Assembly (NCBI GenBank): GCA_017526525.1
Contig: JAFXRG010000041.1
Coordinates: 36,228 to 100,227, forward strand
Origin: Clostridia bacterium
Lineage (GTDB): Bacteria > Bacillota > Clostridia > Christensenellales > Aristaeellaceae
DNA length: 64,000 bases
Direction of reading: 5' to 3'
In this document: positions 32,626-50,295 of the stretch, one piece after another
Layout: the number at the start of each line of letters is the position of its first letter
Position numbering within the stretch: the first letter of the stretch is position 1
The notes under the pieces: generated by a model
Database searches by the model: none
Seen by the model: the letters and a program-made list of their open reading frames with translations, nothing else
Told to the model about the DNA's origin: nothing
Made by a program: the position numbers and the translations under genes

Positions 32626-33372
32626 ATGATGAACGATGTGACGATCCGGCACCTGCTGGATCTTTGCCGGAGAAATGAAAAAACCGGAACCTGGCAGTAT
32701 TCCGGTTTTCTTTCCCCCGCGGAGCAGGATGATTTTCTTCGCTGCCCGGAGGCTGCCGGCTATTCCTTTTTCCTGACCGGCGGTTATGAGGAGGCGGAAC
32801 GGAAAATCCTTGCCGCCGGGAATCCGGAGGAATCCGGACTGCCCGAGGTGCCGGTCCGGGTGATCGCCGTATCTCCGAAATCGGAAAAATTTGCGGAGGA
32901 GCTGACGCACCGGGACTTCCTCGGCGCGGTGCTGGGCCTGGGCATCGAACGCGGACTGATCGGCGATATCCTGGTGCGGGACCGGTATGCCTGGGTTATC
33001 TGCCTGGCCCCGGCCGCGGAGCTGCTGACTTCTTCACTGGACCAGGTTCGCAGGACTGCGGTGACCGCCTCGGAAGCCCCGCCGGATGTGCCGGAGCTGC
33101 GGCCGAAATACATACCACTCCGGCTGAATGTGGCTTCCGAACGGCTGGATGCTGTTACCGCTGCCTTTGCGGGGCTGTCCCGGGGACAGACGGAAAAGCT
33201 GTTCAGCGCGGAAAAGGTTTTTGTGAACGGAAGAACTGCCGCAGACCGAAGCAGCAAGCTGAAGGAGGGGGATATTCTCTCCGTTCGCGGCTTCGGCAAG
33301 GCAGTCTATGACGGAATCGAATATGAAACACGGAAAAACCGGCTGTGGGTCATGCTGAGAAAGCTGGGCTGA
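32626..33372 (+). CDS. YlmH-type S4 RNA-binding protein
   Basis: 248 residues. The N-terminal region matches YlmH (GYSFFLTGGYEEAERKILAAG, then HRDFLGAVLGLGIERGLIGDIL). The S4 domain is at about 178-245 (RLDAVTAAFAGLSRGQTEKLF, then GKVFVNGR-like and LKEGDILSVRGFGK). YlmH homologues bind stalled large ribosomal subunits and act in quality control (RqcP2), and are usually in the dcw/ylm cluster in Bacilli. Here it stands apart from division genes, 23 bases after the ABC exporter. Family call firm, role inferred. Confidence 0.93.
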   Translation: MMNDVTIRHLLDLCRRNEKTGTWQYSGFLSPAEQDDFLRCPEAAGYSFFLTGGYEEAERKILAAGNPEESGLPEVPVRVIAVSPKSEKFAEELTHRDFLGAVLGLGIERGLIGDILVRDRYAWVICLAPAAELLTSSLDQVRRTAVTASEAPPDVPELRPKYIPLRLNVASERLDAVTAAFAGLSRGQTEKLFSAEKVFVNGRTAADRSSKLKEGDILSVRGFGKAVYDGIEYETRKNRLWVMLRKLG

Positions 33373-35486: not shown

Positions 35487-35516
35487 TTGACAAAAATAGC
35501 CATGAATGGATAAAAT
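35487..35516 (+). promoter_or_regulatory. Promoter of the LacI-sensor GGDEF gene
   Basis: TTGACA (35487-35492), 18 bases, TAAAAT (35511-35516). The start codon is about 230 bases downstream, leaving a long leader. Confidence 0.7.
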
Positions 35517-35522
35517 AGAATC

Positions 35523-35746
35523 AACGTGAAAAGAAAAAAGAGCATTTCATTTTCTGCTGAGAACAGCGGAGGGGGAAGGGTGCGCAAAACCGGAAAAGAA
35601 CAGCGACTTTACAAGGCCCGCCTGTTCCGATAGAATAAAAGCCAAGAAAGAACGCAAATCAGACAGCTTTACGCTGAGGCCCTGAAGGGAACCCATCATC
35701 ATATTCTGAGGAACCGCGCAGGGACGCGCGGACGGAGGCCCCTGCA
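35523..35746 (+). other. Long untranslated leader before the GGDEF gene
   Basis: About 224 bases with no credible open frame. It contains local pairings such as GAACAG (35606-35611 region) with a distant CTGTTC, and GCTG-AGAA-CAGC near 35560. I compared it by eye with the c-di-GMP, SAM, THF, ydaO and guanidine riboswitch cores and found no match. GGAGG lies eight bases before the ATG. Possible regulatory RNA; no class assigned. Confidence 0.4.
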
Positions 35747-37684
35747 ATGAACGGATACAGGAGAATCGGATTTCTGACCGCTTACCCGGAAACCACCCAT
35801 GTGCGGAGAGTGCTGGAAGGCGTGGCAGGACAATGCGAAAAGTACGGATACGATTTGTGCGTATTTGCTTCCAGCGTTCATTTTTCCTTTCCGCATGAAA
35901 ACTACATCCGCGGAGAAGGCAATATTTTCAGGCTGGCCAATTTTGACCGGCTGGACGGCGTGATTGTTGACAGTACGGCGATCGTCGGAGATCCGGGAAA
36001 TGCGATTTCCGAGGGACTGTACGCCCGCCTTGCCCAATATGAAAAGCTGCCGAAATGCGTCCTGGAGCTGCCGGTGGACGGCATGGAGCTGATTCCGAGC
36101 AACGATGAGGAAGCGATGCGGGAACAATGCCGGCATGTGATTGAGGTTCACGGCCGGAAAAGGATCTGCGTCCTGACCGGACACCAGGGGAACGAGATCG
36201 CGGAGGCGAGGCTGGCCATCTATCTGGACGAGATCCGGAAACACGGGTTGGACGTTCTGCCGGAGCATATTGTCTACGGTGACTTTTATTATTTCAGCGG
36301 CGATACGCTGGCCAGGCAGATTGCCGGGGGTGAGATTCCGCGCCCGGACGCGGTGGTCTGCGCCAGCGACTGCATGGCCATGGCGCTGGTGGACCGGCTG
36401 ACCAAATCGGGGGTCCGCGTTCCGGAGGACGTGGTGGTGATCGGATTTGATTCCTCGGACGAAGGCGCCGTGAACCTGACCACCATCGCGTCCTATGAGC
36501 CGGCGGATATGGAAATGGGAGCCAACGCGGTGGACTACCTGCGGAGCGTCATGGAACCCGGCGCGGAGCTGATGCCTTTCCGCCGGGATGTTTCCGCGCG
36601 CTTTCACGCCGGCGCCAGCTGCGGGTGCATGACGGACCCGGCGTATGCCATGAAAAGCTTCCGGGGATCCCTGTATATCAGCAGCTACAATCCGGCGGAT
36701 GAGGAACAGAACGAGCGGGTGGGCCTCGGAGCCTTTATGGAGTCGTACGTTATGGAAGGCTTCACCGCCTCCGGGTCCTCGGCGGAATGCATCCGGAACA
36801 TTTTCAACTATGCCGATCTGCTGAAACCTTACCGGAATTTTTACCTGTGCCTGAAGGAAAACTGGAAGAACATGGATGACGATACCTATGAGGGATATCC
36901 TGAGAAGATGAGAATCTATGTGGCCAATTCCAAGGTGGGGGACAGGATGTATTACGGGGAGGATGAGAGCGAATCGTTTCCGACGGAGATCATGCTTCCG
37001 CATCTGGAGGAAGCCCGGGAGAGGCCTTCCGTCTGGTATTTCTCCCCGGTGCATTTTGACGGCGCGCTGCTGGGATACACGGTGCTGCAGAGGAAGCTTA
37101 CAGGACAACCTGTGATCAACATGATCCACCGGAACTGGCTGCGGTACCTGAACAACGCGCTTGAAATGATCCGGTCCAAGGAACGGCTGCAAACCCTTTC
37201 CGTGCGGGACACCATGACCGGGGCCTATAACCGGCGGGGCATGTACGAGATGTACCGGACCATGCTTTCGGAAGCCCGGAAAGGGGACTCGCTGTTTGTG
37301 AGCGTTGTGGATATGGACGGCCTGAAATATGTAAATGACACCTTCGGGCACGGCGAAGGGGACTTTGGAATCCGGACGGTATGCTCCGCCCTGATGTCTG
37401 TGGCCGGTAAGAACGAAATCTGCGTGAGGAGTGGCGGAGACGAGTTTTTCCTGATCGGAATCGGAAGCTACCGCCGGGAGGATGAGGCAAAACGGGCCGC
37501 GGAATTTACGGAAGCGGTGGAGAAGGCCTCCGACCGGGCCGGCAAGCCGTATCCGGTTTCCGCCAGCATCGGGTGCGTGGTGTTTGCCGACTGCCGCGCA
37601 ATCAGCCTGGACAACGCACTGGGCGAGGCGGATGAAAGGATGTACCGCTACAAGATCAAAAACAAAAAGCATCGGCTCGTGTAA
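35747..37684 (+). CDS. LacI-type sugar-sensor domain fused to GGDEF diguanylate cyclase
   Basis: 645 residues, no signal peptide or membrane segment. Residues about 5-285 are a LacI/XylR-type periplasmic-binding fold (RRIGFLTAYPE start, DGVIVDST, GRKRICVLTGHQGNEIAEAR, DAVVCASDCMAMALVDRL, GFDSSDEGAVNLTTIASYE) but the DNA-binding helix-turn-helix is missing. A linker of about 190 residues follows, then a GGDEF domain (about 478-640) with DTMTGAYNRRGMYE, DMDGLKYVNDTFGH, SGGDEFF (near 562-567) and YPVSASIG. The motif is canonical. It should make cyclic di-GMP in response to a cytoplasmic sugar. A GH2 gene follows 28 bases later. LacI-GGDEF fusions are known in Clostridia; this one has no obvious published role that I know of. 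Confidence 0.9.
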   Translation: MNGYRRIGFLTAYPETTHVRRVLEGVAGQCEKYGYDLCVFASSVHFSFPHENYIRGEGNIFRLANFDRLDGVIVDSTAIVGDPGNAISEGLYARLAQYEKLPKCVLELPVDGMELIPSNDEEAMREQCRHVIEVHGRKRICVLTGHQGNEIAEARLAIYLDEIRKHGLDVLPEHIVYGDFYYFSGDTLARQIAGGEIPRPDAVVCASDCMAMALVDRLTKSGVRVPEDVVVIGFDSSDEGAVNLTTIASYEPADMEMGANAVDYLRSVMEPGAELMPFRRDVSARFHAGASCGCMTDPAYAMKSFRGSLYISSYNPADEEQNERVGLGAFMESYVMEGFTASGSSAECIRNIFNYADLLKPYRNFYLCLKENWKNMDDDTYEGYPEKMRIYVANSKVGDRMYYGEDESESFPTEIMLPHLEEARERPSVWYFSPVHFDGALLGYTVLQRKLTGQPVINMIHRNWLRYLNNALEMIRSKERLQTLSVRDTMTGAYNRRGMYEMYRTMLSEARKGDSLFVSVVDMDGLKYVNDTFGHGEGDFGIRTVCSALMSVAGKNEICVRSGGDEFFLIGIGSYRREDEAKRAAEFTEAVEKASDRAGKPYPVSASIGCVVFADCRAISLDNALGEADERMYRYKIKNKKHRLV

Positions 37685-37712
37685 TCGCGCAGGGAAAAAG
37701 GAGGACATAAGG

Positions 37713-40178
37713 ATGAAACATATTGAACTGGATGAGCAGTGGGAGTTTCGACGGGGGTTTCTGGATGCCGTCGGGCAGCTGGCGGAGGTGCCTGCCGAAA
37801 AAGTAAACCTTCCGCATGACGGCATGATCGGCACCCCGGTCTCGCCGGACGCGCCGGCACGGGCGGACAGCGGGTATTTCACCGGCGGCATAACCAACTA
37901 TACCAAGCATGTCCTGTTTCCGGCGGAATGGAAAACGGAATGCGTTGGCCTGCAATTTGACGGCGTGATGATGAATGCCTCCGTGGAGGTGAACGGATCC
38001 CTGGCGGCGCGCCATCACTACGGGTATGCGCCCTTTTATGTGGATCTGACTTCCCGGGTGACCTTCGGGGAGGAAAACCGGATCACTGTTCACACCAATA
38101 CCAGCATGCAGCCGAATTCCCGGTGGTATACCGGCTCGGGCCTGTACCGGGGCGTCAGGCTGCTGCACGGCCCGAGGGTACATATCGTTCCGGACAGCGT
38201 TTTTGTCCGCACAAAGGAATTGGCGGACGGCTGCGCGTTCCTGGAGGCCCGGGTGGAAGTGGAAAACGCCACCCTGGAAAACAGGCTGGCGGAAGTGACA
38301 GTGACACTTGCGGAAGAGGATTCGGACCGGGAAGCTGCCCGGGCCCGGGGCGTGATATACATCGGAGCCGGCGGAAAGGAAACCGCCCGGATCGCTTTCC
38401 GGGCGGAAAAACCAAAGCTCTGGAGCGCTGAGGAACCGAATCTCTACCGTGTGCATGCTTCCGCGCGGGACCTGGGAGAATACCGGACGCATTTCGAACC
38501 CTCCCCGGAGGGCACTGCGGATGAGGAAACCGTGCTGTTCGGAATCCGGACAATTACGGCGGACGCGGTTCGGGGGCTTCGAATCAACGGCAGGGAGGTT
38601 AAGCTGAAGGGCGGATGCCTTCACCATGACAACGGGCTGCTGGGCGCGGTGTCGCTGTACGAAACGGAAGCACGCAAGATCCGCAAACTGAAGGAAGCGG
38701 GCTTCAACGCCATCCGCACGGCGCACAATCCGCCCTCCTCCGCGCTGATCGAAGCCTGCGACCGGCTGGGCATGTATGTTTTTGACGAAGCGTTTGACTG
38801 CTGGAACATGGCAAAGCGCGGCGGGGATTTCAGCCAGCACTTTGCGGAACACGGGGAAGAGGATTTGCAGGCCTTTGTCCGGAGGGACCGCAGTCATCCT
38901 TCCGTGATTCTCTGGTCCACCGGCAATGAGATTCCGGAACGGGGAGGCCTTTCCGACGGATATACCGTGGCTGCCCGGCTGGCAGAAACGGTGCGGCGCC
39001 TGGACGGAAGCCGGCCGGTCAGCAACGGAATCTGCTCCATGTGGAGCGGGCTGGACGACGCGCTGGCGGTGACCCAGGCACAGGAACAGAACTCGGGAGC
39101 CGGCTTTGGATCCACCCTGTGGGAAAAGGTTACGGAACCTTTTGCCAACGGCCTGGATGTGGTTGGATACAATTATATGGAGGAGCTGTACGAACGGGAT
39201 CATGAAATGTTCCCGGACAGGGTGATTCTGGGATCGGAAAACTTTCCGAAGGAGATCGGCTACCGATGGCCTTTTGTGGAGAGCCATTCCTACGTGATCG
39301 GAGACTTTACCTGGACCGCCTGGGACTATATCGGGGAAGCCGGCATCGGCAAAGCGGCCTATGTGGATCCGGAGGATCCGCTGGCAAAGAAAGGGCACTG
39401 GGCGCTGATGCCGCAGTATGCCTCTCCGTTCCCGTGGCGGACGGCCAACGACGCGGACTTTGACATTACCGGACAGATGCTGCCGCAGGGCGTATACAGG
39501 AGCATCGTCTGGGGAAATCCACGGACGGGTCTTTTCTCCCTGCCGCCGGAAACCTGGCATAAAACAGAGATTATCACCATGTGGGGATTCCCGGGGGTCC
39601 GGGCGGAATGGACCTATCCCGGCAGCGAAGGAAAACCGGTTGAGCTGGTAGTTTTTTCCGGCGCGGAGGAGGTGGAGCTGCTGGTGAACGGCCGCTCTGC
39701 CGGGCGGAAAAAGGTTTGCTTTGAAAAACCGCTGCCCTGCTCCGTGCGCTTTGAAACCGTTTATGAGCCGGGCACGGTGGAGGCTGTCAGCTACCGGAAC
39801 GGCAAGGAGGTCAGCCGGGACCGGTTGACCACGGCCGGCGAACCGGCGGCGATTGAGCTGATTCCCGAAAAGAAAACCATGCAGGCGGACGGGCATGACC
39901 TGATTTATGTACAGGCTGTGATTCGGGACCGGAATGGCACGGTGGTGCCGAACGCTCTGGTGCGCCTGACGGCGGAGGTAACCGGATGCGCATCCCTGGC
40001 GGCCTTCGGATCCGGAAATCCCGTTACCGACGAAAACTATACGGATTGCCGCACGGTGAGCTACCGGGGCCGGGCAATGGCGATTCTCCGTTCCGGAAAG
40101 GAAAAAGGCCCCGTCTGCCTCCGCGTCACCGCGGAGGGCCTGCCCGCCGCCGAAGTGAAGGACCTCTCCGCGGAGTAA
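37713..40178 (+). CDS. Glycoside hydrolase family 2 (beta-galactosidase-like)
   Basis: 821 residues, cytoplasmic. N-terminal jelly-roll domain with IELDEQWEFRRGF and the RWYTGSGLYRGVRL motif, Ig-like middle, TIM barrel with GCLHHDNGLLGAV, IRTAHNPPSSALIEACDRLGM, acid/base Glu406 in STGNEIPERG and nucleophile Glu509 in LGSENFP. Retaining hydrolase of terminal beta-galactosyl, glucuronyl, mannosyl or arabinosyl groups; the beta-glucuronidase N-x-K motif is not visible, so galactosidase-like is most probable. The start at 37713 has GGAGG ten bases upstream. It follows the sensor-GGDEF gene by 28 bases and is probably co-transcribed. A terminator at 40218-40251 follows. Confidence 0.93.
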   Translation: MKHIELDEQWEFRRGFLDAVGQLAEVPAEKVNLPHDGMIGTPVSPDAPARADSGYFTGGITNYTKHVLFPAEWKTECVGLQFDGVMMNASVEVNGSLAARHHYGYAPFYVDLTSRVTFGEENRITVHTNTSMQPNSRWYTGSGLYRGVRLLHGPRVHIVPDSVFVRTKELADGCAFLEARVEVENATLENRLAEVTVTLAEEDSDREAARARGVIYIGAGGKETARIAFRAEKPKLWSAEEPNLYRVHASARDLGEYRTHFEPSPEGTADEETVLFGIRTITADAVRGLRINGREVKLKGGCLHHDNGLLGAVSLYETEARKIRKLKEAGFNAIRTAHNPPSSALIEACDRLGMYVFDEAFDCWNMAKRGGDFSQHFAEHGEEDLQAFVRRDRSHPSVILWSTGNEIPERGGLSDGYTVAARLAETVRRLDGSRPVSNGICSMWSGLDDALAVTQAQEQNSGAGFGSTLWEKVTEPFANGLDVVGYNYMEELYERDHEMFPDRVILGSENFPKEIGYRWPFVESHSYVIGDFTWTAWDYIGEAGIGKAAYVDPEDPLAKKGHWALMPQYASPFPWRTANDADFDITGQMLPQGVYRSIVWGNPRTGLFSLPPETWHKTEIITMWGFPGVRAEWTYPGSEGKPVELVVFSGAEEVELLVNGRSAGRKKVCFEKPLPCSVRFETVYEPGTVEAVSYRNGKEVSRDRLTTAGEPAAIELIPEKKTMQADGHDLIYVQAVIRDRNGTVVPNALVRLTAEVTGCASLAAFGSGNPVTDENYTDCRTVSYRGRAMAILRSGKEKGPVCLRVTAEGLPAAEVKDLSAE

Positions 40179-40272: not shown

Positions 40273-41052
40273 TCAGTCCGGATCCCGGCCGATGACTTCC
40301 CATTGCCGGAGGGCAGGGAAGGCAGAGGGGTCGTCGCTTTTGATCATGCGCTCGAGTCGCAGCCAGCGGACGGCCCGGTTGTGCAGGGGGATCCACTGGC
40401 GGTCCCCTGTTTTCTCCAGGTCAAAGGACAGGTCGCTTCCGTCGGACAGCACCACATGGCCGGAGGTCCACCAGGCGTCGTGGGGGAAATCCGCCCGCAG
40501 GGTCAGGGCCATTTTTTCCGCAAGCACCGTGCGGCCCAGATCCAGCATACACCAGGCGTCCTCCCGGGCGCCGATTCCCCAGCTCTGGAACGGCCATTCC
40601 CCGTGGAAGGTGTTGGCGCGGATGCCGTCGATCACATTGCGGGCGCAGAAACAGGCTTCATTCCGGGTTTCCACATTGGCGGTGCAGTGGGGGTAAAAAT
40701 CCGTATCCCCGCGAAGGTCTGCGGGATTCAGGGCCAGGTTCCTGACGCACAGATGCCCGTTTTCCGGAAAGACGGCGGCAAAAATCAGATGCCGGGGCGC
40801 TTCGAAAGTGCCGGGGGCATAGGCCAGGCGGTGTTCCCCGGCGGGAACCGGCCACGTCAGGGTGCCTTTCGGAAGGAAAACTTCCCCGGAGGCCATGGCC
40901 TGGTCCATCCGGACCCGGAGATGGGCGGGGCCGGAAATGCAGATCCGGTCCCCGGGCTGGTAAACCCGGTCCACGGACAGCCATACCTCTTCCGGATGTT
41001 CCGCCCGGGCGAGGATGGTTCCGTCTCCGGACTGCACGGTAACGGTAATCAT
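40273..41052 (-). CDS. Discoidin (F5/8 type C)-like carbohydrate-binding protein, cytoplasmic
   Basis: 259 residues, no signal peptide. The N-terminal half (about 1-95) is a small beta sandwich with VFLPKGTLTWPVPAGEHRLAY. The C-terminal half has ARNVIDGIRANTFHGEWPFQSWGIGARED, then AWCMLDLGRTVLAEKMALTLRADFPHDAWW, matching the coagulation factor 5/8 C-domain pattern (N-x-x-D-G, W, D-L-G, V-x-x-I). Such modules bind sugars. The ATG at 41052 has AAAGGAG ten bases upstream; a GTG at 41061 is too close to it. It is downstream of the LacI-type repressor gene by 22 bases, so it belongs to the acidic-glycan regulon. Lack of export is unusual for this fold. Confidence 0.8.
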   Translation of the reverse strand: MITVTVQSGDGTILARAEHPEEVWLSVDRVYQPGDRICISGPAHLRVRMDQAMASGEVFLPKGTLTWPVPAGEHRLAYAPGTFEAPRHLIFAAVFPENGHLCVRNLALNPADLRGDTDFYPHCTANVETRNEACFCARNVIDGIRANTFHGEWPFQSWGIGAREDAWCMLDLGRTVLAEKMALTLRADFPHDAWWTSGHVVLSDGSDLSFDLEKTGDRQWIPLHNRAVRWLRLERMIKSDDPSAFPALRQWEVIGRDPD

Positions 41053-41074: not shown

Positions 41075-42121
41075 TTACAGTCTTCGGTAACCCAGATGGG
41101 CGCCGCAGCTTTCACGGACCACCAGCGTGGCGTCCCGTACGATCGCAAAGGAACGGGAGGAAGACTCCCGGGCCAGCAGCAGTTCCCGGACCGCGCTCTG
41201 GGCCATTTCTTCCGGATGCAGATCCACAGAGGTGAGGGACGGGTCCGTATAGGCGCAGAAAAACTGATTATCGCAGCCGATAATCGCCATATCCTGCGGA
41301 AGCGTAAGCCCCATTTTTTTCAGCTGTTTCATCACGCCGAGGGCTACCAGATCGTTGAAGGTGACAATGGCGGTCGGCCAGTGGGTGGGTTCCAGGCCGG
41401 AAAGCATGCGGAGAACGGCCCTTTCCCCGCTTTCCATGTCATACCCCGCGTCCACGTGATAGGCCGGATCATCCGGCAGATCCATTTTCCGGAGCTGCTC
41501 CAGAAAACCGCTGCCCCGCCGGGAAGTGTCCTTGCTGTGCATGGAACCGCCGAGAAAAGCGATGCGCCGATGCCCCAGTGTGTGCAGGTGACGGACCGGA
41601 AGACGGGAGCAGTTGACCAGGTCGCTTTGAATGCAGATACATTCCAGGGAAACGTCCGGAGGGCAGATGGTGGCTACCGGCATGTATTTGCCGAGTTTTT
41701 CGAGGGCGGCGTTCAGGTCTCTCCGGTCTTCTGACCAGATGCTTCCGGCAAACAGGACGCCGTCCATCCGGCAGCGGATCAGTTCGCTGACCAGTTCGGG
41801 AGAGATGGCCTGGTTTTCCATGGTCTGGAAAAGGCGGATGCAGCATCCGTTCTTTTCCGCCTCCCAGTAAGCCGCGTCCAGAATACGGTTAAAATACAGA
41901 TTGGAAATAACAGGAAGAACAACCGCCAGGGTCCGGCTGCGGTTTCCGTTCAGATTTTGCGCGGAAATACTGGGCGTGTAGGCGTGCGCGTCGATGACCT
42001 GCTGAACTTTCAGGCGGGTGGCTTCCTTTACATGCGGATCGTGCCGGACCACCCGCGTTACCGTGGCGGTGGAAACTCCGGCTTCACGGGCAATATCATA
42101 AATCGTAGGCTTTATGTTCAT
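41075..42121 (-). CDS. LacI family transcriptional repressor
   Basis: 348 residues. N-terminal helix-turn-helix and hinge: TIYDIAREAGVSTATVTRVVRHDPHVKEATRLKV (about 5-38), then an effector-binding periplasmic-binding-type domain (about 60-345) with LAVVLPVISNLYFNRILD, HRRIAFLGGS, TAIVTFNDLVALGVMKQLKKMG and DMAIIGCDNQFF. Effector is probably a sugar made from the imported oligosaccharide. The start is at 42121, with GGAGGGTG upstream; the open frame reaches 42268 without a binding site. It is divergent from the sugar-transport operon and its own promoter is at 42141-42169, near an operator. Confidence 0.95.
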   Translation of the reverse strand: MNIKPTIYDIAREAGVSTATVTRVVRHDPHVKEATRLKVQQVIDAHAYTPSISAQNLNGNRSRTLAVVLPVISNLYFNRILDAAYWEAEKNGCCIRLFQTMENQAISPELVSELIRCRMDGVLFAGSIWSEDRRDLNAALEKLGKYMPVATICPPDVSLECICIQSDLVNCSRLPVRHLHTLGHRRIAFLGGSMHSKDTSRRGSGFLEQLRKMDLPDDPAYHVDAGYDMESGERAVLRMLSGLEPTHWPTAIVTFNDLVALGVMKQLKKMGLTLPQDMAIIGCDNQFFCAYTDPSLTSVDLHPEEMAQSAVRELLLARESSSRSFAIVRDATLVVRESCGAHLGYRRL

Positions 42122-42140
42122 GGTTACACCCTCCGCGGGT

Positions 42141-42169
42141 ATCCTATCATGAATCGGCTGCAAATGCAA
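42141..42169 (-). promoter_or_regulatory. Promoter of the lacI-type repressor gene
   Basis: Minus strand TTGCAT (42169-42164), 17 bases, TAGGAT (42146-42141). The O1 palindrome is only six bases upstream of its -35, so a repressor bound there could affect it. Confidence 0.55.
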
Positions 42170-42174
42170 GAAAA

Positions 42175-42190
42175 ATGTTACCGATAACAT
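42175..42190. promoter_or_regulatory. Operator O1 (LacI-type or cre-like)
   Basis: ATGTTACCGATAACAT: a 16-bp inverted repeat with central CG and one mismatched pair, the form bound by LacI-family proteins. The inner 14 bases (42176-42189) match the CcpA cre consensus TGWAANCGNTNWCA at all but one position. Confidence 0.7.
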
Positions 42191-42231
42191 GAGTATATCC
42201 GAAGATCCGAAAAAGTTTTTTGGCAAAACTC

Positions 42232-42260
42232 TTGACAAAACGGGATGAAAGAAATAATAT
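42232..42260 (+). promoter_or_regulatory. Strong promoter of the sugar-transport operon
   Basis: TTGACA (42232-42237), 17 bases, TAATAT (42255-42260). It lies between O1 and O2; transcription would start near 42267. Confidence 0.85.
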
Positions 42261-42316
42261 TTAGACAAATATTAGGGAAACGAAAGGGAAACGGATCGGA
42301 GACAGCACTCCGAAAA

Positions 42317-42332
42317 GTGAAACCGATAACAT
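42317..42332. promoter_or_regulatory. Operator O2; perfect cre-consensus match in the leader
   Basis: GTGAAACCGATAACAT. The right half is identical to that of O1. The 14-mer 42318-42331 matches the cre consensus TGWAANCGNTNWCA at every position. It lies about 50 bases after the predicted start site, so bound repressor or CcpA could act as a roadblock. O1 and O2 are 142 bp apart, which allows looping. Confidence 0.75.
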
Positions 42333-42363
42333 TTCCCAAACAATGATGGAGGAGGAAACCTAT

Positions 42364-43605
42364 ATGAAGAAAATGCTGTCTGTGCTGCTGGCCGCGATTA
42401 TGATGGTCTCGCTGCTGGCCGTACCCGCCCTGGCCGAGGACCAGGTGCTGACCGTGGTGACCTGGGATGCCACCACCACCCCTTATCTGATTGCCCAGAA
42501 GGAAGCTTTTGAAGCTGCCAACCCCGGTATCAAAATTGAGTATGTTGACGTTGCTTCCCAGGACTACGCGGTGAAAACCACCACCATGCTGGAAGGCGGA
42601 GACACCAGCGACGTGTTCATGATCAAGGAAATTGACAACCTGATCAACTGGCAGGCGCAGGGCTTCGCGGCCCCTCTGGCGGACTATGTTTCCGGCTATG
42701 ACATGTCCGGCTTCGTGGGAACCGAAGTGAACTACGCGGTGGACGGCGTACAGTATGCCATTCCGTTCCGCAGCGACTTCTGGGTTCTGTTCTACAACAA
42801 GGATCTGTTCGACGCTGCCGGCGAGGCCTATCCCACCAACGACATGACCTGGGATCAGTACGCTGAACTGGCCAAGAAGATGACCGACAAGGAAAAGGGC
42901 ATTTACGGAACCCACTATCACACCTGGCTGTCCGCCGTGGCGAACTGGGCTGTCTGCGACGGCGTCAACACGCTGGCTGACAAGAACTATGATGATCTGC
43001 TCTACTTCTACAAACTGTATCAGGATCTGGAAGACAACGGAGCCTGCATGAGCTATGCGGATCTGAAGGCTTCAGGCCTGCACTACTCCGCGGCCTTCGC
43101 CAACGGCAACGTTGCGATGATGCCCATGGGCTACTGGTACGTTTCCACGCTGATCGGCTACAACAAGGAAGGCACCTGCAACTTCAACTGGGGCATCGTG
43201 GCTGTTCCGCATCTGGAAGGCGTTGCTGCCGGATCTTCATTCGGCAACCTGACCGGCGCGATGATCAACGCCAAGTCCGAGCAGAAGGATCTGGCCTGGA
43301 AGTATATCTCCTGGCTGGGCGGCGAGGAAGGCTCTCTGGCTACCGCTTCCACCGGCGCCCGTCCTGCGTGGGTTTCCGAAGGTGTTGCCGCGTGCATGTC
43401 CTCCGTGGAAGGTTTCCCGTCTGACGACAACAGCAAGGCTGCCCTGCTGCCCGCCGCTGTCTCGATGGAATGGCCGGTGGCCGAGAAGGTTTCCGACATC
43501 AAGACCATTGTGAACGAAGAACACAGCCTGATCATGGCCCGTGAAATCACGCCCGAAGAAGGCGTTCAGGAAATGAACGAGCGCGTGGCTGAACTGTTCG
43601 AATAA
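42364..43605 (+). CDS. ABC transporter extracellular sugar-binding protein
   Basis: 413 residues. Signal peptide at 1-22 (MKKMLSVLLA, hydrophobic core, ALA-ED); no lipobox Cys is evident. The mature protein is a family 1 extracellular solute-binding protein: TVVTWDATTTPYLIAQKEAFEAANPGIKIEYVDV, YAIPFRSDFWVLFYNKDLFDAAG, WDQYAELAKKMTDKEKG, MMPMGYWYVSTL and a C-terminal MNERVAEL. It delivers an oligosaccharide to the permeases that follow. Start chosen at 42364, after GGAGGAGG. First gene of the operon; regulated by O1/O2. A lipoprotein anchor would be normal in Gram-positives, so lack of a Cys is odd but may be compensated by a non-lipid anchor. Confidence 0.94.
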   Translation: MKKMLSVLLAAIMMVSLLAVPALAEDQVLTVVTWDATTTPYLIAQKEAFEAANPGIKIEYVDVASQDYAVKTTTMLEGGDTSDVFMIKEIDNLINWQAQGFAAPLADYVSGYDMSGFVGTEVNYAVDGVQYAIPFRSDFWVLFYNKDLFDAAGEAYPTNDMTWDQYAELAKKMTDKEKGIYGTHYHTWLSAVANWAVCDGVNTLADKNYDDLLYFYKLYQDLEDNGACMSYADLKASGLHYSAAFANGNVAMMPMGYWYVSTLIGYNKEGTCNFNWGIVAVPHLEGVAAGSSFGNLTGAMINAKSEQKDLAWKYISWLGGEEGSLATASTGARPAWVSEGVAACMSSVEGFPSDDNSKAALLPAAVSMEWPVAEKVSDIKTIVNEEHSLIMAREITPEEGVQEMNERVAELFE

Positions 43606-43628
43606 TCTGTTTCGGTATCGATTCTCCC

Positions 43629-43663
43629 AGGCAGGGAAGGCCGCTTGCCTTCCCTGCCTTTTT
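43629..43663 (+). terminator. Intercistronic hairpin, likely partial terminator
   Basis: A perfect 13-bp stem (43629-43641 with 43647-43659) and a five-base loop, followed by TTTTT. It lies between the binding-protein gene and the permeases, where such hairpins raise binding protein over permease. Confidence 0.75.
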
Positions 43664-43692
43664 CAGAAACAAGGGAAAGGATGAGATAACAC

Positions 43693-44649
43693 ATGAGCCA
43701 GGCAGGTGTGAAAAAAGTCCGGTACAGGATGGGAAAACTGGAAAGAAAGAATACGCTGGTGGCTTACTCTTTTCTGGCACCGAACTTTATCGGATTTGCG
43801 GTTTTCACGCTGGTACCGGTGATCTGTGCCATCGCGCTCTCACTGTTCGAGTGGAACGGCGGAGATATTTCCAAGATGAAGTTTGTCGGCCTGGATAATT
43901 ACGCAACAATCTTTGCTACGAAAAAAGTAGCGGAGAAGGGTCTTGGATATTTCTTTACCCGGGCAGACCTGGGCATTGCGCTGAAGAACACGGTATATTA
44001 CACAGTGATCACGGTTCCCATGACCATTGTGTGTGCACTGGCGCTGGCGCTGCTGCTGAACAAAATCAAGGGAGCGGTGTTTTTCCGGACGGTGTTTTTC
44101 TTTCCCTATGTATCTTCCATGGTGGCGATCTGTGTGTGCTGGTCTTTCATGCTGATGAAAGACGGACCGATCAATCAGCTGATCATGGCTCTGGGAATTG
44201 ATTTTAACAAAGGATGGACCGCAGACAGCACTATGGCGATCTGGTCCATTATTCTGGTCAGTGTCTGGCGGAATATGGGATATTACATGGTGCTGTATCT
44301 GGCAGCGCTGCAGGGAATTCCGCGGGAGCTGATGGAAGCGGCCACCGTAGACGGAGCAAACAAATGGCAGCAGTTCCTTCACGTGACGCTGCCGCAGCTG
44401 AAGCCGACGACCTTCTTTGTTTCTGTGATGATGGTGATCTCCTGCTTCAAGATTTATGACGTGGTAGCCATCATGACCGACGGCGGCCCGGGCCGGGCAA
44501 CCAAGATGCTGGTAACCTATATCTATGACGAAGCCTTTGTCAAGGTACGGTACGGTCAGGCCAGCGCCATTTCCATGGTGCTGCTGGTGATTGTGCTGCT
44601 GGTAACCATTATCCAGTTCAGCTCCGAGAAGAAATTCTCCAGTGACTGA
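43693..44649 (+). CDS. ABC sugar transporter permease, MalF-type
   Basis: 318 residues with six membrane helices (first at about 25-45). Contains the cytoplasmic EAA loop that meets the ATPase: MEAATVDGANKWQQFLHVTLPQL (about 215-235). Typical of the binding-protein-dependent MalF/UgpA class. The gene follows the binding protein after the hairpin at 43629-43663 and precedes its partner by 17 bases. Confidence 0.95.
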   Translation: MSQAGVKKVRYRMGKLERKNTLVAYSFLAPNFIGFAVFTLVPVICAIALSLFEWNGGDISKMKFVGLDNYATIFATKKVAEKGLGYFFTRADLGIALKNTVYYTVITVPMTIVCALALALLLNKIKGAVFFRTVFFFPYVSSMVAICVCWSFMLMKDGPINQLIMALGIDFNKGWTADSTMAIWSIILVSVWRNMGYYMVLYLAALQGIPRELMEAATVDGANKWQQFLHVTLPQLKPTTFFVSVMMVISCFKIYDVVAIMTDGGPGRATKMLVTYIYDEAFVKVRYGQASAISMVLLVIVLLVTIIQFSSEKKFSSD

Positions 44650-44666
44650 GAAAGGAGGAAAAGAAA

Positions 44667-45533
44667 ATGGAAACGGCTTTACACAGCAAGGAAATCCGGA
44701 AGGACAATCCGACCCTGCGCAGGATCCTGAGAGTGATTGTGTGGATTTTGCTGATCGTTCTGGCGGCTTTTACCCTGGTGCCTTTCATTTGGATGATTTC
44801 CTCCTCCCTGAAGCTGGACCGGGAAGTGTTTGCTTTCCCGATGCGTTGGGTTCCGGAGACATTTCACTGGGAAAACTATTCCCTGATCTGGCAGAAGGTG
44901 CCGCTGCTGAACTACTTCAAAAATACGGCATTTATCGCGATTGTGGTGACGCTTCTGCAGACGCTGACCTCTTCCTTTGCGGCTTACGCTTTCGCAAAGC
45001 TGAACTTCCGCGGGAGGGATGTTCTGTTCCTGTGCTATATCGGCACCATTGCGGTACCGTGGCAGGCTTATATGCTGCCGCAGTTCATCATGATGCGGTC
45101 CATGGGCCTTTACGACACTCTGTGGGCTATGGTGGTGCTGCAGGCATTCTCTGCCTTCGGCGTGTTCCTGATGCGGCAGTTTTACCGTTCGATTCCCACG
45201 GAACTGTGTGAGGCGGCCCGGCTGGACGGCCTAAGCGAATACGGAATCTGGGCACGGATTATGCTGCCGCTTTCGAAGGCGGCCATTGCCACGCTGGTGA
45301 TTTTCACCTTTGTCAACACCTGGAACGACTACATGGGGCCGATGATTTACCTGACCCGGGATGTCAACAAGACGGTGCAGGTCGGCCTGCGGCGTTTTAT
45401 TCAGGAAAATTCCAGCGACTACCACCTGATTATGGCGGCTTCCCTGTGCTCCCTGCTGCCGGTTTCCGTTGTCTTCCTGTGCCTGCAGCGGTATTTCATT
45501 GAAGGCATTGCCACATCCGGCCTGAAGGGATAA
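44667..45533 (+). CDS. ABC sugar transporter permease, MalG-type
   Basis: 288 residues, six membrane helices (first at about 22-44), EAA loop CEAARLDGLSEYGIWARIMLP (about 180-200). MalG/UgpE class, ending IATSGLKG as many of this class do. AAAGGAGGAAAAGAAA precedes the ATG. With the MalF-type protein it makes the channel; no ATPase gene is found in the operon. Confidence 0.95.
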   Translation: METALHSKEIRKDNPTLRRILRVIVWILLIVLAAFTLVPFIWMISSSLKLDREVFAFPMRWVPETFHWENYSLIWQKVPLLNYFKNTAFIAIVVTLLQTLTSSFAAYAFAKLNFRGRDVLFLCYIGTIAVPWQAYMLPQFIMMRSMGLYDTLWAMVVLQAFSAFGVFLMRQFYRSIPTELCEAARLDGLSEYGIWARIMLPLSKAAIATLVIFTFVNTWNDYMGPMIYLTRDVNKTVQVGLRRFIQENSSDYHLIMAASLCSLLPVSVVFLCLQRYFIEGIATSGLKG

Positions 45534-45546
45534 TCCGGAGGGAAAC

Positions 45547-47373
45547 ATGTTTGCGGAATTTTTACAGAACCAACCAATGAGGGCAATGCTGCGGAACGGA
45601 TCCCGGATGCTTTATCCGCCGGCAGAGGACCGGACATGCTGGGACGGGATTCCGGAGAAAATGCGGATGGAAATCCGGAAGCTGGCGGCAGAATACCGGG
45701 AAGCCGCTTATCCCATGCGGAGTGCCAGTGGATTTATGGCCTTTGTGCGGGATGGCAGCCGGCAGGCGGATGAGAAACCGTATTTCACACGGCGCAGAAA
45801 GCTGTGCGCCGCTGTGCTGCATGCCTGCGCATTTCCGGAGGAAGCGGATACGGACGCGGTCATCGACGGCATCTGGTGCATCTGCGAGGAAAGCAGCTGG
45901 GTGATCAGCGCGCATAATGTGAACCCAATTCCGGGGGCGCCCGCCGCCGCGGAATTCCCGCTGCCGGATGTCCGCAAACCGTATATTGACCTGTTCAGCG
46001 CGCAGACCGGCATGATTCTTTCCCTGACCTCCTCGCTGCTGGGGAAACAGCTGGACCGCGTTTCCCCGGTGATCCGCAAACGGATCACGGAGGAGATCCG
46101 GCGCCGGATCCTGCGGCCGTTTATGACTACGGACGATTTCTGGTGGATGGGATTCCGGCGGAAGGACCTGAATAACTGGACCCCGTGGATTCTTTCCAAT
46201 GTGATGGTGTGCGCTGCGCTGGCTCCCATGCCGGCCGGTTGGCTGGCGGCGCTGCTGACCCGGGCCTGCGGCATGCTGGACCGGTACCTGGATGTGATTC
46301 CGCCGGACGGAGGCTGCGACGAGGGCGCCGGCTACTGGAACATGGCCGGCGGCGCGCTGCTGGACTGCCTGGAGCTGCTGGAAAAAATGACCGGGGGAAA
46401 AATGAGTTTCCGGGAAAACGAAAAGATCCGGAATATTCTGCGGTTTCCCCTGAAAACGTCCCTGGGGAACGGCTGGTTTGCCAATTTCGCGGACTGCGAC
46501 GCGCGGCCGTTCATCAGCGGGGAGCGGATGGAAACCGCCGGTCGGATGCTGAAGGATCCGGAGCTGACGGCCCTTGGAACGCGGATGCGGGGAACCGTTG
46601 CAGACCAGCTGAATGATGTGCCGCACCTGACCCGGGCGCTGGACCTGATCTTTCACGAGCCGGCCGAGGCATCCCGCTGCGCGGAGCTCAAAGCGGAAGA
46701 CATATACCTGCCGGACCTGCAGGTGCGTACCCTTCGGCGGGGCAAGTGGACGCTGGCCTGCAAAGGCGGGCACAACGGGGAAAACCACAACCACAACGAC
46801 GTGGGCTCCTTTATCCTTTTCCAGGGAGGCGAGCCGGCGGTGGTAGATGCGGGCAACATGACCTATACCGCCAAAACCTTCTCAGCGGAACGCTACACGC
46901 TGTGGAATGTCCGGGCGGACTGGCATAACCTGCCCATGGCGGACGGCTGCTGCCAGCAGCCGGGAAGGGAGTATGCCGCCCGGGAGGTGAAATGCACACC
47001 GGACGGGATGGAACTGAACCTGGAAGGCGCATACCCGCAGGAAGCCGGCATTCTCTGCCTGAAACGTTCCTTTGCACTTGGGCCGGAGGGCCTCCGGCTG
47101 ACGGACGAGGGAAGGCTGCAGACACCCCGGGAGGTCACCTGGGTTTTCCTTTTGCGGAACCAGCCCGAATGGAAATGCGGGCAGGTGACGGCAGGAAAGC
47201 TGGCGATCCGCTGCCCGGAAGGAATGGCCTTTTCGGCGGAGGAAAAGCCGGTGACGGATCCGCGTATGGCCCGGAATTGGCCGGGAAGCCTTTGGAGGGT
47301 ACAGCTGAAAATCGGAAAAACAGACCGTTTCCGGGTGGAATTTGTGTTTTGTGCACAGGAACGGGAGGCATAA
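45547..47373 (+). CDS. Heparinase II/III-like polysaccharide lyase or glycan-active protein
   Basis: 608 residues, no signal peptide. Residues about 60-360 are an alpha/alpha toroid (GAGYWNMAGGALLDCLELLEKM). The C-terminal beta-sandwich half (about 380-600) has the Heparinase II/III signature with KGGHNGENHNHNDVGSF (His409, His414, His416, Asp418), VVDAGNMTYTAKTFSAERYTLW and DWHNLPMADG. Family lyases cleave uronate glycans by beta-elimination to leave unsaturated uronyl ends. In this operon, GH88 acts on those ends and the beta-glucuronidase on saturated ones. It is cytoplasmic, so it would act on imported oligosaccharides. GGAGGG precedes the ATG by four bases. Exact substrate (heparosan, chondroitin, alginate-like or plant acidic glycan) unknown. 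Confidence 0.88.
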   Translation: MFAEFLQNQPMRAMLRNGSRMLYPPAEDRTCWDGIPEKMRMEIRKLAAEYREAAYPMRSASGFMAFVRDGSRQADEKPYFTRRRKLCAAVLHACAFPEEADTDAVIDGIWCICEESSWVISAHNVNPIPGAPAAAEFPLPDVRKPYIDLFSAQTGMILSLTSSLLGKQLDRVSPVIRKRITEEIRRRILRPFMTTDDFWWMGFRRKDLNNWTPWILSNVMVCAALAPMPAGWLAALLTRACGMLDRYLDVIPPDGGCDEGAGYWNMAGGALLDCLELLEKMTGGKMSFRENEKIRNILRFPLKTSLGNGWFANFADCDARPFISGERMETAGRMLKDPELTALGTRMRGTVADQLNDVPHLTRALDLIFHEPAEASRCAELKAEDIYLPDLQVRTLRRGKWTLACKGGHNGENHNHNDVGSFILFQGGEPAVVDAGNMTYTAKTFSAERYTLWNVRADWHNLPMADGCCQQPGREYAAREVKCTPDGMELNLEGAYPQEAGILCLKRSFALGPEGLRLTDEGRLQTPREVTWVFLLRNQPEWKCGQVTAGKLAIRCPEGMAFSAEEKPVTDPRMARNWPGSLWRVQLKIGKTDRFRVEFVFCAQEREA

Positions 47374-47376
47374 AAA

Positions 47377-49179
47377 ATGACCGGAATGAAAAATCCCCTG
47401 CGGACCCGGCAGGACCTGATGCAGGCGGCCGCGGCCATCCTGCAGCCGCTGACCGGATGCATGACGCCGGGAAAGGCCAGGATCTATGTGGGCAAAGGGT
47501 CCGCCCATTATTCGGAGGATGTGGCCGGCATGGAATGCTGGTCCCGGGCGCTGTGGGCGCTGGTGCCGATGCTGATGGGGAAATCTCCCGAAGCCGAAAG
47601 CCTCTGGCCCCTGTGGCGGGAGGGAATGATCCACGGGACGGATCCGGAAGACGGGGAATACTGGGGAGACCTCCGGGACTGCGACCAGCGGATGGTGGAA
47701 ATGGCGGTGATCGGGTGCGGCCTGTGCTTTGTGCCGGAACACTTTCTGGAACCGCTGAATGACAGGGAACGGCAGCATCTGTACAACTGGCTGAACCAGA
47801 TCAACATTTATGATATGCCGAAAAACAACTGGCGTTTTTTCCGGATTCTGGTGAATATCGGTTTCCGGAAAAACGGACTTCCGGTGGATGAAGAGAAGCT
47901 GCGGCAGGACCTGGACATGATGGAGAGTCACTACACCGCGGACGGATGGTATTTTGATTATCCCACGAAGCGGGATTATTACACCCTGTGGGGATTCCAT
48001 TTTTACAGCCTGCTGTATGCGGCAGCGATGGGACAGGAGGATCCGGAAAGGGATGCCCGGTTCCGGGAACGGGCGGCGATGATTGCGCCGCGTTTCGCCT
48101 GCTGGTTTGACCGGGAAGGAAGAGGCCTGCCCTACGGCCGAAGCCTGACCTACCGCTTCTGCCAGAGCTCCTTCTGGGCTGCGATGGCTTTTGCGGGGGT
48201 GACCTGCAACGAACTGCGGCCGGGACAGGTCAAGCATCTGCTGCTGAACAACCTGCGGTTCTGGCTGAACCGGCCGATTTTTGACCGGGGCGGCGCGCTG
48301 ACTGTTGGGTACGGATATCCCAACCTGTGCGCGGCGGAGGGGTACAACGCGCAGGGATCGCCCTACTGGGCGCTCAAGTCTTTCTGGGTCCTGGCCCTGC
48401 CGGAGGATCATCCCTTCTGGAAAACGGAAGAGGAGGAATATCTTCCGCCGGAAAGGTTCTGCGACCGGCAAGTGCGCCTGCTCCTGACCCGGGATCCGGA
48501 AAACCGGCAGGCGGTGGCCTATACTGCGGGCAACCATGCCTGGGAGCATATGCACGAAGACGAAAAATATGAGAAGTTTGCCTATTCCACCCAGTTCGCC
48601 TTTTCCGTGGCCAAGGAGGATTCCGCGCTGAACCGGGGCGCCTATGACAGCATGCTGGCGCTTCGGGAGGAGGGACGGGACCTCTGGAACGTACGCAGCG
48701 GATGTGAAGCCTCTGAGCTGACCGAGAACCGGGTGACCTTTACCTGGTCCCCGATGAACGGCGTGACGATCGATACGGTGATTGCGCCCCTGGGGATGTG
48801 GCATGTCCGGAAGCATGTCATCCGGACGGAACGCTCCCTGGAAGCCGCGGAAGGCGCGTTTTCCGTGCCGAAGGACTGGGCCGGGGCGCGGCCCTGTGAC
48901 CGGATCTGCTCGGCGACGGAAGCGGATGAGTATCATGCTGCGGCCTCCGGCGGGAAGGGCACCAGCGCGATTTACGCCCTGAAAGGGTACACGGGCGCGG
49001 AAGTGATTCACACGGAACCGAACACGAACCTGATGGAACCCCGTTGCGTCCTGCCGACGCTGCACAGCCGGCTGGCGCCGGGGGAGCATACGCTGCTGTG
49101 CGCGGTTTTCACGGACAGCGGGGATCATCTGCCCGCAGAAATACCGGAGGAGGTGCGGAAGCTTGCAGAATCGCTATGA
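47377..49179 (+). CDS. DUF2264 family protein
   Basis: 600 residues, no signal peptide. N-terminal part (about 5-380) is alpha-helical and toroid-like with GSAHYSEDVAGMECWSRALWALVPML, then DGEYWGDLRDCDQRMVEMAVIG; the tail (about 390-600) is beta-rich. This is the DUF2264 pattern. Members are common next to heparinase-like and GH88 genes in glycan loci, but I know no firmly assigned activity; a lyase or hydrolase on uronate sugars is possible. It starts three bases after the lyase stop, with GGAGG eight bases upstream, and its 3' end overlaps the GH88 gene by 17 bases. Confidence 0.9.
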   Translation: MTGMKNPLRTRQDLMQAAAAILQPLTGCMTPGKARIYVGKGSAHYSEDVAGMECWSRALWALVPMLMGKSPEAESLWPLWREGMIHGTDPEDGEYWGDLRDCDQRMVEMAVIGCGLCFVPEHFLEPLNDRERQHLYNWLNQINIYDMPKNNWRFFRILVNIGFRKNGLPVDEEKLRQDLDMMESHYTADGWYFDYPTKRDYYTLWGFHFYSLLYAAAMGQEDPERDARFRERAAMIAPRFACWFDREGRGLPYGRSLTYRFCQSSFWAAMAFAGVTCNELRPGQVKHLLLNNLRFWLNRPIFDRGGALTVGYGYPNLCAAEGYNAQGSPYWALKSFWVLALPEDHPFWKTEEEEYLPPERFCDRQVRLLLTRDPENRQAVAYTAGNHAWEHMHEDEKYEKFAYSTQFAFSVAKEDSALNRGAYDSMLALREEGRDLWNVRSGCEASELTENRVTFTWSPMNGVTIDTVIAPLGMWHVRKHVIRTERSLEAAEGAFSVPKDWAGARPCDRICSATEADEYHAAASGGKGTSAIYALKGYTGAEVIHTEPNTNLMEPRCVLPTLHSRLAPGEHTLLCAVFTDSGDHLPAEIPEEVRKLAESL

Positions 49180-50272
49180 GGAAAAACTGAACGCCATTGC
49201 GGCAAAATTCCGGAAAACGGCGGAGGCGGCTGCAGCCGAGGGAATAATCCCTTACCAGAGCGCCGGAGGAAAATGGATTTCCAGCCCCTATGACGGCAAC
49301 AGCTGGTGGACCGGCGGATTCTGGCCCGGACTCATGTGGCAGCTGTATACCCTTACAGGAGATGCTTTCTTCCAGACTGAGGCGCGCCGGGCACAGAAGC
49401 TGCTGACGGATGAATTCCGCACTTTCCGCCGGCTGAATCATGATGTGGGGTTTATGTACCTGCTTTCCTGCGGGGCGGACGCAAAGCTGACCGGGAACGA
49501 GCAGGCGGAAACGGACACGCTGCATGCGGCCTCCCTGCTGATGGGCCGCTTTAACCCGGCAGGATTTATCCGGGCCTGGAATGAGCCGGAACGCACCGGG
49601 TTTGCGATTATTGACTGCATGATGAACCTGACGCTCCTGTACCGCGCCAGCCGGGATACGGGAGATCCGCGGTTCCGGCAGGTGGCGGAAATCCATGCGG
49701 ATACGACACGGAGGGAATTCCTGCGGCCGGACGGATCGGTCAGCCATATTATCGAGTTTGACCCGGAAAGCGGAAAGAGGGTCCGGGAACATCCGGGACA
49801 GGGCTATGCGCTGGGAACGCAGTGGAGCCGGGGACAGGCCTGGGGCCTGTACGGATTTGCGCTGGCTTTCCGCCATCTGCAGAAGCCTGCCTACCTGGAG
49901 GCTGCCGGGAAAATTGCCCGGAATTTCGCGGCGCACATCCGGGAGGATGGCCTGACGGACTGCGATTTCTGCCAGCCGAAGGAAGAGAAGCGGATTGACA
50001 ACATTGCCGGGGCGGTGGCAGCCTGCGGTTTCCAGGAACTGGCGAAGCTGACGGGCGAGGCCGAATGGAAAAACTGCGCCGAGCGCCTGGTGAACGCCAT
50101 GCTGGAGCACTGCGCGGACCTGGGAGGGGACCGCTGCGGCATTCTCACCCACTGCACGGCCAGCTACCACGACGACGGAGCCGGACAGCATACGAATATT
50201 ACCTACGGGGATTATTTCCTGGTGGAGGCCCTGATGAAGCTTTGCGGGAAGGACCCGGAGCTGTGGAGCTGA
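49163..50272 (+). CDS. Glycoside hydrolase family 88 unsaturated glucuronyl hydrolase
   Basis: 369 residues, alpha/alpha six-hairpin barrel. Key parts: SWWTGGFWPGLMW (about 50-62), catalytic Asp94 in NHDVGFMY, Asp151 in IIDCMMNL (these match Asp88 and Asp149 of Bacillus GL1 UGL), and GTQWSRGQAWGLYGF. It hydrates the double bond of unsaturated uronyl ends and releases the uronate as a keto-sugar. No signal peptide. Start is TTG at 49163 with GGAGGAGGT eight bases upstream; no later ATG fits. It overlaps the DUF2264 gene and precedes the glucuronidase by 23 bases. Confidence 0.93.
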   Translation: MQNRYEEKLNAIAAKFRKTAEAAAAEGIIPYQSAGGKWISSPYDGNSWWTGGFWPGLMWQLYTLTGDAFFQTEARRAQKLLTDEFRTFRRLNHDVGFMYLLSCGADAKLTGNEQAETDTLHAASLLMGRFNPAGFIRAWNEPERTGFAIIDCMMNLTLLYRASRDTGDPRFRQVAEIHADTTRREFLRPDGSVSHIIEFDPESGKRVREHPGQGYALGTQWSRGQAWGLYGFALAFRHLQKPAYLEAAGKIARNFAAHIREDGLTDCDFCQPKEEKRIDNIAGAVAACGFQELAKLTGEAEWKNCAERLVNAMLEHCADLGGDRCGILTHCTASYHDDGAGQHTNITYGDYFLVEALMKLCGKDPELWS

Positions 50273-50295
50273 AACCGGGAGAAACGGAGAGAAAC

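Follow-up and report, generated by a model that had tools for sequence, protein, structure and literature searches.

A soluble LacI-type receptor without a DNA-binding domain joined to a GGDEF domain in Clostridia: a predicted ligand-gated diguanylate cyclase

LacI-type domains rank among the best understood sugar receptors, and the ligand-binding core of LacI/GalR regulators such as LacI, PurR and CcpA is shared by the protein described here, a predicted diguanylate cyclase encoded by a fusion gene (35747..37684, forward strand) in a 64,000-nucleotide stretch of a gut-type Clostridia bacterium genome (assembly GCA_017526525.1, contig JAFXRG010000041.1), hereafter the window. The order of its further parts, GAF fold, helix and GGDEF domain, is that of the GAF-GGDEF diguanylate cyclases Dcsbis (4zmu) and Lcd1. 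The accessible part of a 2022 census of cyclic-di-GMP sensors describes the arginine-sensing protein RmcA of Pseudomonas aeruginosa, in which a binding-protein-like domain (SBP_bac_3) gates cyclic-di-GMP turnover, as we propose here, and it names a Peripla_BP/LacI-like domain, the same sensor class as that of the fusion, among the sensors without a validated role (PMC8846402). In the open-licence literature we found no study of a LacI-type/GGDEF fusion. A report of alpha-glucosidase activity in a HAMP-GGDEF protein (PMC5457731), whose accessible part mentions no LacI domain, was set aside, and three further records were, in the portions available, off the point for such fusions (PMC1183210, PMC6912079, PMC12268683).

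We propose, with a probability of roughly 0.7, that the fusion is a soluble one-component, ligand-gated cytosolic diguanylate cyclase. In this hypothetical scheme, a cytosolic small molecule would close the LacI-type Venus-flytrap domain; the movement would travel via a Cys-Gly-Cys junction and a GAF-fold relay and then along a helix (residues 459–486); and the meeting of the GGDEF domains in a dimer would change, turning cyclic-di-GMP synthesis up or down. The target would probably be the cell's cyclic-di-GMP pool, with no dedicated link to the glycoside hydrolase family 2 (GH2) gene next to it.

Architecture of the fusion and its cyclase domain

The 645-residue protein comprises a LacI-type sensor, a GAF-fold domain and a GGDEF domain. 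Pfam assigns Peripla_BP_3/Peripla_BP_1 (LacI-type) and GGDEF matches to it, with no match between them. The LacI-type ligand-binding domain (35747..36622, residues 1–292; features are on the forward strand unless noted) begins directly at the start of the protein. Neither the Pfam search of the protein nor inspection by eye of the three translated upstream frames yielded a helix-turn-helix, and a hidden DNA-binding domain reached from an alternative start was rejected on the same inspection. An in-frame stop codon lies 23 codons 5' of the ATG, M1 is common to ten aligned relatives, and a ribosome-binding site, GGAGG (35734..35738), can be read directly eight bases 5' of the ATG. A promoter-like TTGACA-18-TAAAAT site lies upstream at 35487..35516 (consensus scan, 11 of 12 matches; no evidence of function), in a region with eight such sites against a shuffled mean of 3.1. 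The protein contains no membrane-like stretch. These findings support a soluble, cytosolic LacI-type receptor without a DNA-binding domain, joined to a GGDEF domain with intact motifs, and they bear out a preliminary description of this DNA, which had reported a LacI-type fold directly from the start and a canonical SGGDEF domain.

The same description spoke of a joiner of about 190 residues between sensor and GGDEF domain. No GAF or other Pfam profile matches this region at an E-value of 0.01, but it is more than a linker: structure prediction and fold comparison place a GAF-fold domain there (36749..37111, approximately residues 335–455, including C368), followed by the long helix that joins it to the GGDEF domain (37121..37204).

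The GGDEF domain (37202..37666, residues 486–640; Pfam E 1.3e-24) carries its SGGDEF motif at residues 562–567 (37430–37447), and the protein is predicted to make cyclic-di-GMP. Among the 97 fusion proteins collected (that of the window, those of the other loci in its genome, of 15 further loci and of 79 of 80 stretches, L204 yielding no full fusion), 95 carry a [GS]GDE motif, the two exceptions being EAL proteins of the window's own genome; Ser replaces the first Gly of the motif in 26 of them all. Certain GGDEF proteins act solely as receptors, and the fusion might likewise have ceased to be an enzyme and bind cyclic-di-GMP or guanosine triphosphate (GTP) instead. We regard this as very unlikely, since the protein has D488, D522, N530, D531 (the last three of which we take to be substrate residues) and SGGDEF, all of them conserved in six of six orthogroup members, and no RxxD site for product binding is found in the protein, nor in any but one of 102 relatives.

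Sensor pocket, cysteines and the wider family

In the alignment with PurR, R155, F180 and D235 of the fusion fall on R196, F221 and D275, positions that presumably act in the PurR pocket. Because paralogues are 13–33% identical per domain, single-column counts hinge on the MAFFT alignment; so counted, 110 of 113 aligned proteins share R155 and 104 share D235, with no variation at either position within the orthogroups of 26, 24, 23, 7 and 6. Retention of this LacI/PurR pocket pair (Arg/Asp) would make polar molecules resembling a sugar or a nucleoside the likeliest class of ligand; a sugar is possible, judged from the fold. Position 180, the stacking position, is fixed within each of the five larger orthogroups (W, M, W, L and F, respectively), a pattern that would be expected for receptors with different ligands, though it is no proof of them.

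The sensor could instead be a mere structural or dimerising scaffold, with the GAF-fold domain doing the actual sensing, for instance of a nucleotide. GAF domains sense cyclic adenosine monophosphate or guanosine diphosphate in the known diguanylate cyclases Lcd1 and DcpA, as given in the available portion of the census (PMC8846402), and the orthogroup of three (L063:9235-11163, L202:5955-7895, L203:6010-7959) has lost the pocket pair (R155M, D235N) yet retains its GGDEF motif. The retention of R155 and D235, as counted above, argues against a scaffold, as does the conservation of the sensor between orthologues, which resembles that of the other parts (74–79% identity versus 68–75% for the CGC-GAF part); we therefore consider this explanation improbable.

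The sensor ends in Ser-Cys-Gly-Cys, and both cysteines of the Cys-Gly-Cys motif (36620..36628, residues 292–294) occur in 110 of the 113 aligned proteins; the three proteins without CxC are exactly the orthogroup that lacks R155 and D235, one lineage in which these features were lost together. Among the 13 other Peripla_BP_3 proteins of the same genome none has CGC, and three LacI regulators there end in SC. Cys368, in the GAF region, is found in 102 of 113 proteins; it is absent from all eight that combine EAL with no intact GGDEF, a set split between two parts of the tree, and from three of the 105 others. A redox or metal role may be envisaged for these cysteines.

The region of sensor and GAF fold also precedes other outputs, namely EAL with a degenerate GGDEF, EAL alone, an intact GGDEF together with EAL, and GGDEF with a C39-like peptidase region. 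Two of the eight fusions in the window's genome are LacI-GGDEF-EAL proteins of about 1300 residues (L065:7394-11284, L066:4299-8192); in both, the GGDEF is degenerate, the EAL looks intact and some 400 further residues match nothing in Pfam. A gene for a separate GGDEF protein follows that of L065. LacI-type sensors joined to EAL with no GGDEF match (L225:1443-4787, L226:1421-4768; about 1115 residues) occur together in one genome of another genus, and in two genomes of the genus LacI-GGDEF runs into a Peptidase_C39_2-like region (L151:4701-7604, 967 residues; L158:5760-8879, 1039 residues). We tentatively suggest, as a reading that is considerably less probable than not, that this Clostridia family of cytosolic switches reads two inputs at once, a metabolite in the LacI-type pocket and a redox or metal signal at Cys-Gly-Cys with the third, GAF cysteine, with the same receptor placed on GGDEF or EAL. 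One receptor type plugged into synthesis (GGDEF) or breakdown (EAL) could then push cyclic-di-GMP either way.

The family is sizeable and apparently little studied. The window's genome (2.76 Mb, 64% complete) has 32 GGDEF and 21 Peripla_BP_3 matches, and eight proteins with both domains by Pfam. Of the 45 genomes of the genus, 35 match at E <= 1e-25, counting the window's own, and a close orthologue (73–75%) is present in three genomes besides that one (G034, G012, G030); two metagenome-assembled genomes from goat reticulum hold one at 76–77%. Relatives at 41–46% come from Lachnospiraceae, Ruminococcus, Eubacterium ruminantium and other Clostridia records. Across the class, at least nine of 196 genomes (five of 132 genera), own included, match at E <= 1e-70, these counts being lower bounds as at most six candidates were scored per genome. 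The 97 fusions fall into orthogroups of 26, 24, 23, 7, 6, 3, 2, 2, 2, 1 and 1. In a midpoint-rooted tree of 53 of the 113 sequences (first 500 residues, some long branches), the window's orthogroup of six nests inside relatives from other families (support at least 100/97) and is separate from the paralogues of the genus, a placement that suggests horizontal acquisition.

The neighbouring GH2 gene and the surrounding locus

As the preliminary description had stated, the next gene encodes a GH2 glycosidase (37713..40178, 821 residues, assigned by Pfam), 28 bases away (37685–37712) in the same orientation. No terminator-like site lies between the two, and a shared transcript in this genome is plausible given the gap. 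From this proximity it had been proposed that a sugar inside the cell sets cyclic-di-GMP levels in step with glycosidase expression; on that view the sensor would bind a sugar released by the adjacent GH2, and the two genes would form an operon. LacI-type folds often bind sugars, and sugar-type permeases, a solute-binding protein (SBP) and a LacI regulator lie 3–7 kb downstream of the fusion, both of which fit that proposal.

The survey of related genomes does not bear it out. A GH2-family gene is adjacent in one of the 97 fusion loci, that of the window, and 3–8 kb away in nine (78 of the 97 loci have at least 4 kb on both sides). No relative of the GH2, the LacI regulator or the SBP neighbours the fusion in any of five orthologues (73–77%), with flanks of approximately 8–10 kb each side covered for L081, L097 and L098, 2.3 kb downstream and 9.7 kb upstream for L096, and about 0.9 kb each side for L080; a 25% LacI match in L097 falls inside the fusion gene itself, and L096 has a different GH2-family gene about 7.4 kb upstream. 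For the low-GC relatives L082–L087, neighbourhoods were checked only by tblastn, with window proteins as queries. The GH2 is inherited separately from the fusion: its relatives occur at E <= 1e-150 in 34 of the 45 genus genomes (own included), and in the other genomes with an orthologous fusion the gene sits on a separate contig (G034) or is absent at that threshold (G012, G030). None of 11 GH2 orthologues, with flanks of up to 1.5 kb, adjoins a fusion or a LacI regulator or SBP of the window's kind.

The gene downstream of the fusion has the opposite orientation in 70 of the 97 cases and lies on the same strand in 24 (15 within 100 bp), with none in three; a same-strand upstream gene within 100 bp is found in 20. 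Pfam annotation of all 44 same-strand genes, with downstream ones (24) taken at any distance and upstream ones (20) up to 100 bp away, gives two glycoside hydrolases (the window's GH2 and a GH5 upstream of L171), which likewise speaks against the coupling; the remainder comprise six SBP_bac_5, two Peripla_BP_4, two RnfC, five GGDEF and/or EAL proteins and others. The upstream "neighbour" of L174, of 75 residues, overlaps with the fusion, whose N-terminus it seems to represent. Recurrent convergent neighbours of the largest orthogroup (orthogroup 0) resemble DUF1292, YqgF and PNPase, judged by eye from N-termini. In orthogroup 1 (e.g. L135:5314-6327, L061:11025-12932), the gene immediately 5' of the fusion encodes a T2SSE (PilT-like) ATPase in six loci and an SBP_bac_5 protein in six others; a link to pili or peptide uptake is possible.

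Of the nine more distant GH2-family genes, seven belong to orthogroup 0, one is that of L096, and one, in L197 (G025), is a true orthologue of the window's GH2 (57%), 3.4 kb upstream of a paralogous fusion. In the orthogroup 0 cases (L127, L153, L154, L156, L162, L170, L190; 7 of 26), the GH2-family gene differs from that of the window and is the third to fifth gene upstream of the fusion in the same orientation, at approximately 3–4 kb. By a rough estimate from about 10 first-look GH2 candidates per genome and some 14 kb per locus, around five of 97 loci would have a GH2 nearby by chance, against 10 seen, seven of these representing one inherited neighbourhood. Sugar-type permease relatives, which also favour the proposed circuit, lie 2–6 kb from five other fusions (L062, L143, L193, L198, L201) and LacI-regulator relatives near six, so that a connection with solute uptake may persist in some paralogues. 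Taken together, the coupling is not conserved and poorly supported, the window's GH2 is probably a chance neighbour that we do not consider part of a conserved unit, and a sugar/GH2 circuit is unlikely.

Further downstream, 41075–52038 holds a probable polysaccharide-use locus with a LacI regulator, an SBP, two permeases, a heparinase-like protein, a DUF2264 protein and a second GH2. A palindrome, TGTTACCGATAACA (42176–42189), precedes the SBP gene; it has no copy upstream of the fusion, which speaks against the sugar circuit, and the idea that the adjacent LacI regulator controls the fusion was rejected. The palindrome pattern, with three mismatches allowed, occurs three times in the window against a shuffle mean of 2.2 and is thus no commoner than in shuffles, so that the operator itself is only a guess; the sole 9-mer shared in this comparison covers the -35 box. 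Rfam gave no match within the window at gathering scores, and in the cyclic-di-GMP-I riboswitch search all control genomes were silent. Other genes include a 259-residue protein without a Pfam match between GH2 and LacI regulator (40273–41052, reverse strand), an Alpha-L-arabinofuranosidase-like protein (54302–56758; ASD1_dom, Alpha-L-AF_C) and a YlmH-like S4 RNA-binding protein (32626–33372) with a sub-cut-off score to the Sll1252-type PS_II_S4 family.

Several points weigh against a ligand-gated cyclase. The GAF model is middling (pLDDT, the predicted local distance difference test score, 74; five models 44–74), and D235 is replaced by E in five of the seven relatives that belong to other genera and by G in L234. 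The absence of RxxD, a product-inhibition site that diguanylate cyclases often carry but that does not define them, means that regulation differs from that of textbook cyclases, and a PilZ receptor was not found in the 64%-complete genome. The GH2 genes near L197 and in orthogroup 0 speak mildly for the coupling and are unexplained. Of our proposal, the domains, the lack of a helix-turn-helix, the motif residues, the retained pocket pair, the cysteine motif across the family and the weak GH2 linkage are observed here, and we infer the enzyme activity, dimerisation, ligand class, direction of effect and relay path.

Comparison with known systems

As a soluble protein of 645 residues that retains the pocket pair, the fusion lends itself to an initial experiment on whether a LacI-type receptor can gate a diguanylate cyclase. 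The orthogroups that differ at the stacking position would allow the evolution of ligand choice to be studied under a constant output, the cysteine motif offers a testable second input, and the weak linkage to GH2 cautions against inferring function from a single neighbour gene.

In contrast to LacI/GalR regulators, the fusion has no DNA-binding domain, its output is GGDEF and its sensor ends in Cys-Gly-Cys. It differs from Dcsbis and Lcd1 by the extra LacI-type domain in front and by a GAF part too diverged for Pfam. RmcA, as described in the accessible text of the census, uses another binding-protein family, is called periplasmic and has a phosphodiesterase output; for the Peripla_BP/LacI-like class that text gives no protein, ligand, GAF relay or cysteine motif (PMC8846402). 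The sensor class itself had been catalogued there; the protein described here is best read as a one-component diguanylate cyclase that combines a LacI-type receptor with a GAF relay hidden from sequence profiles.
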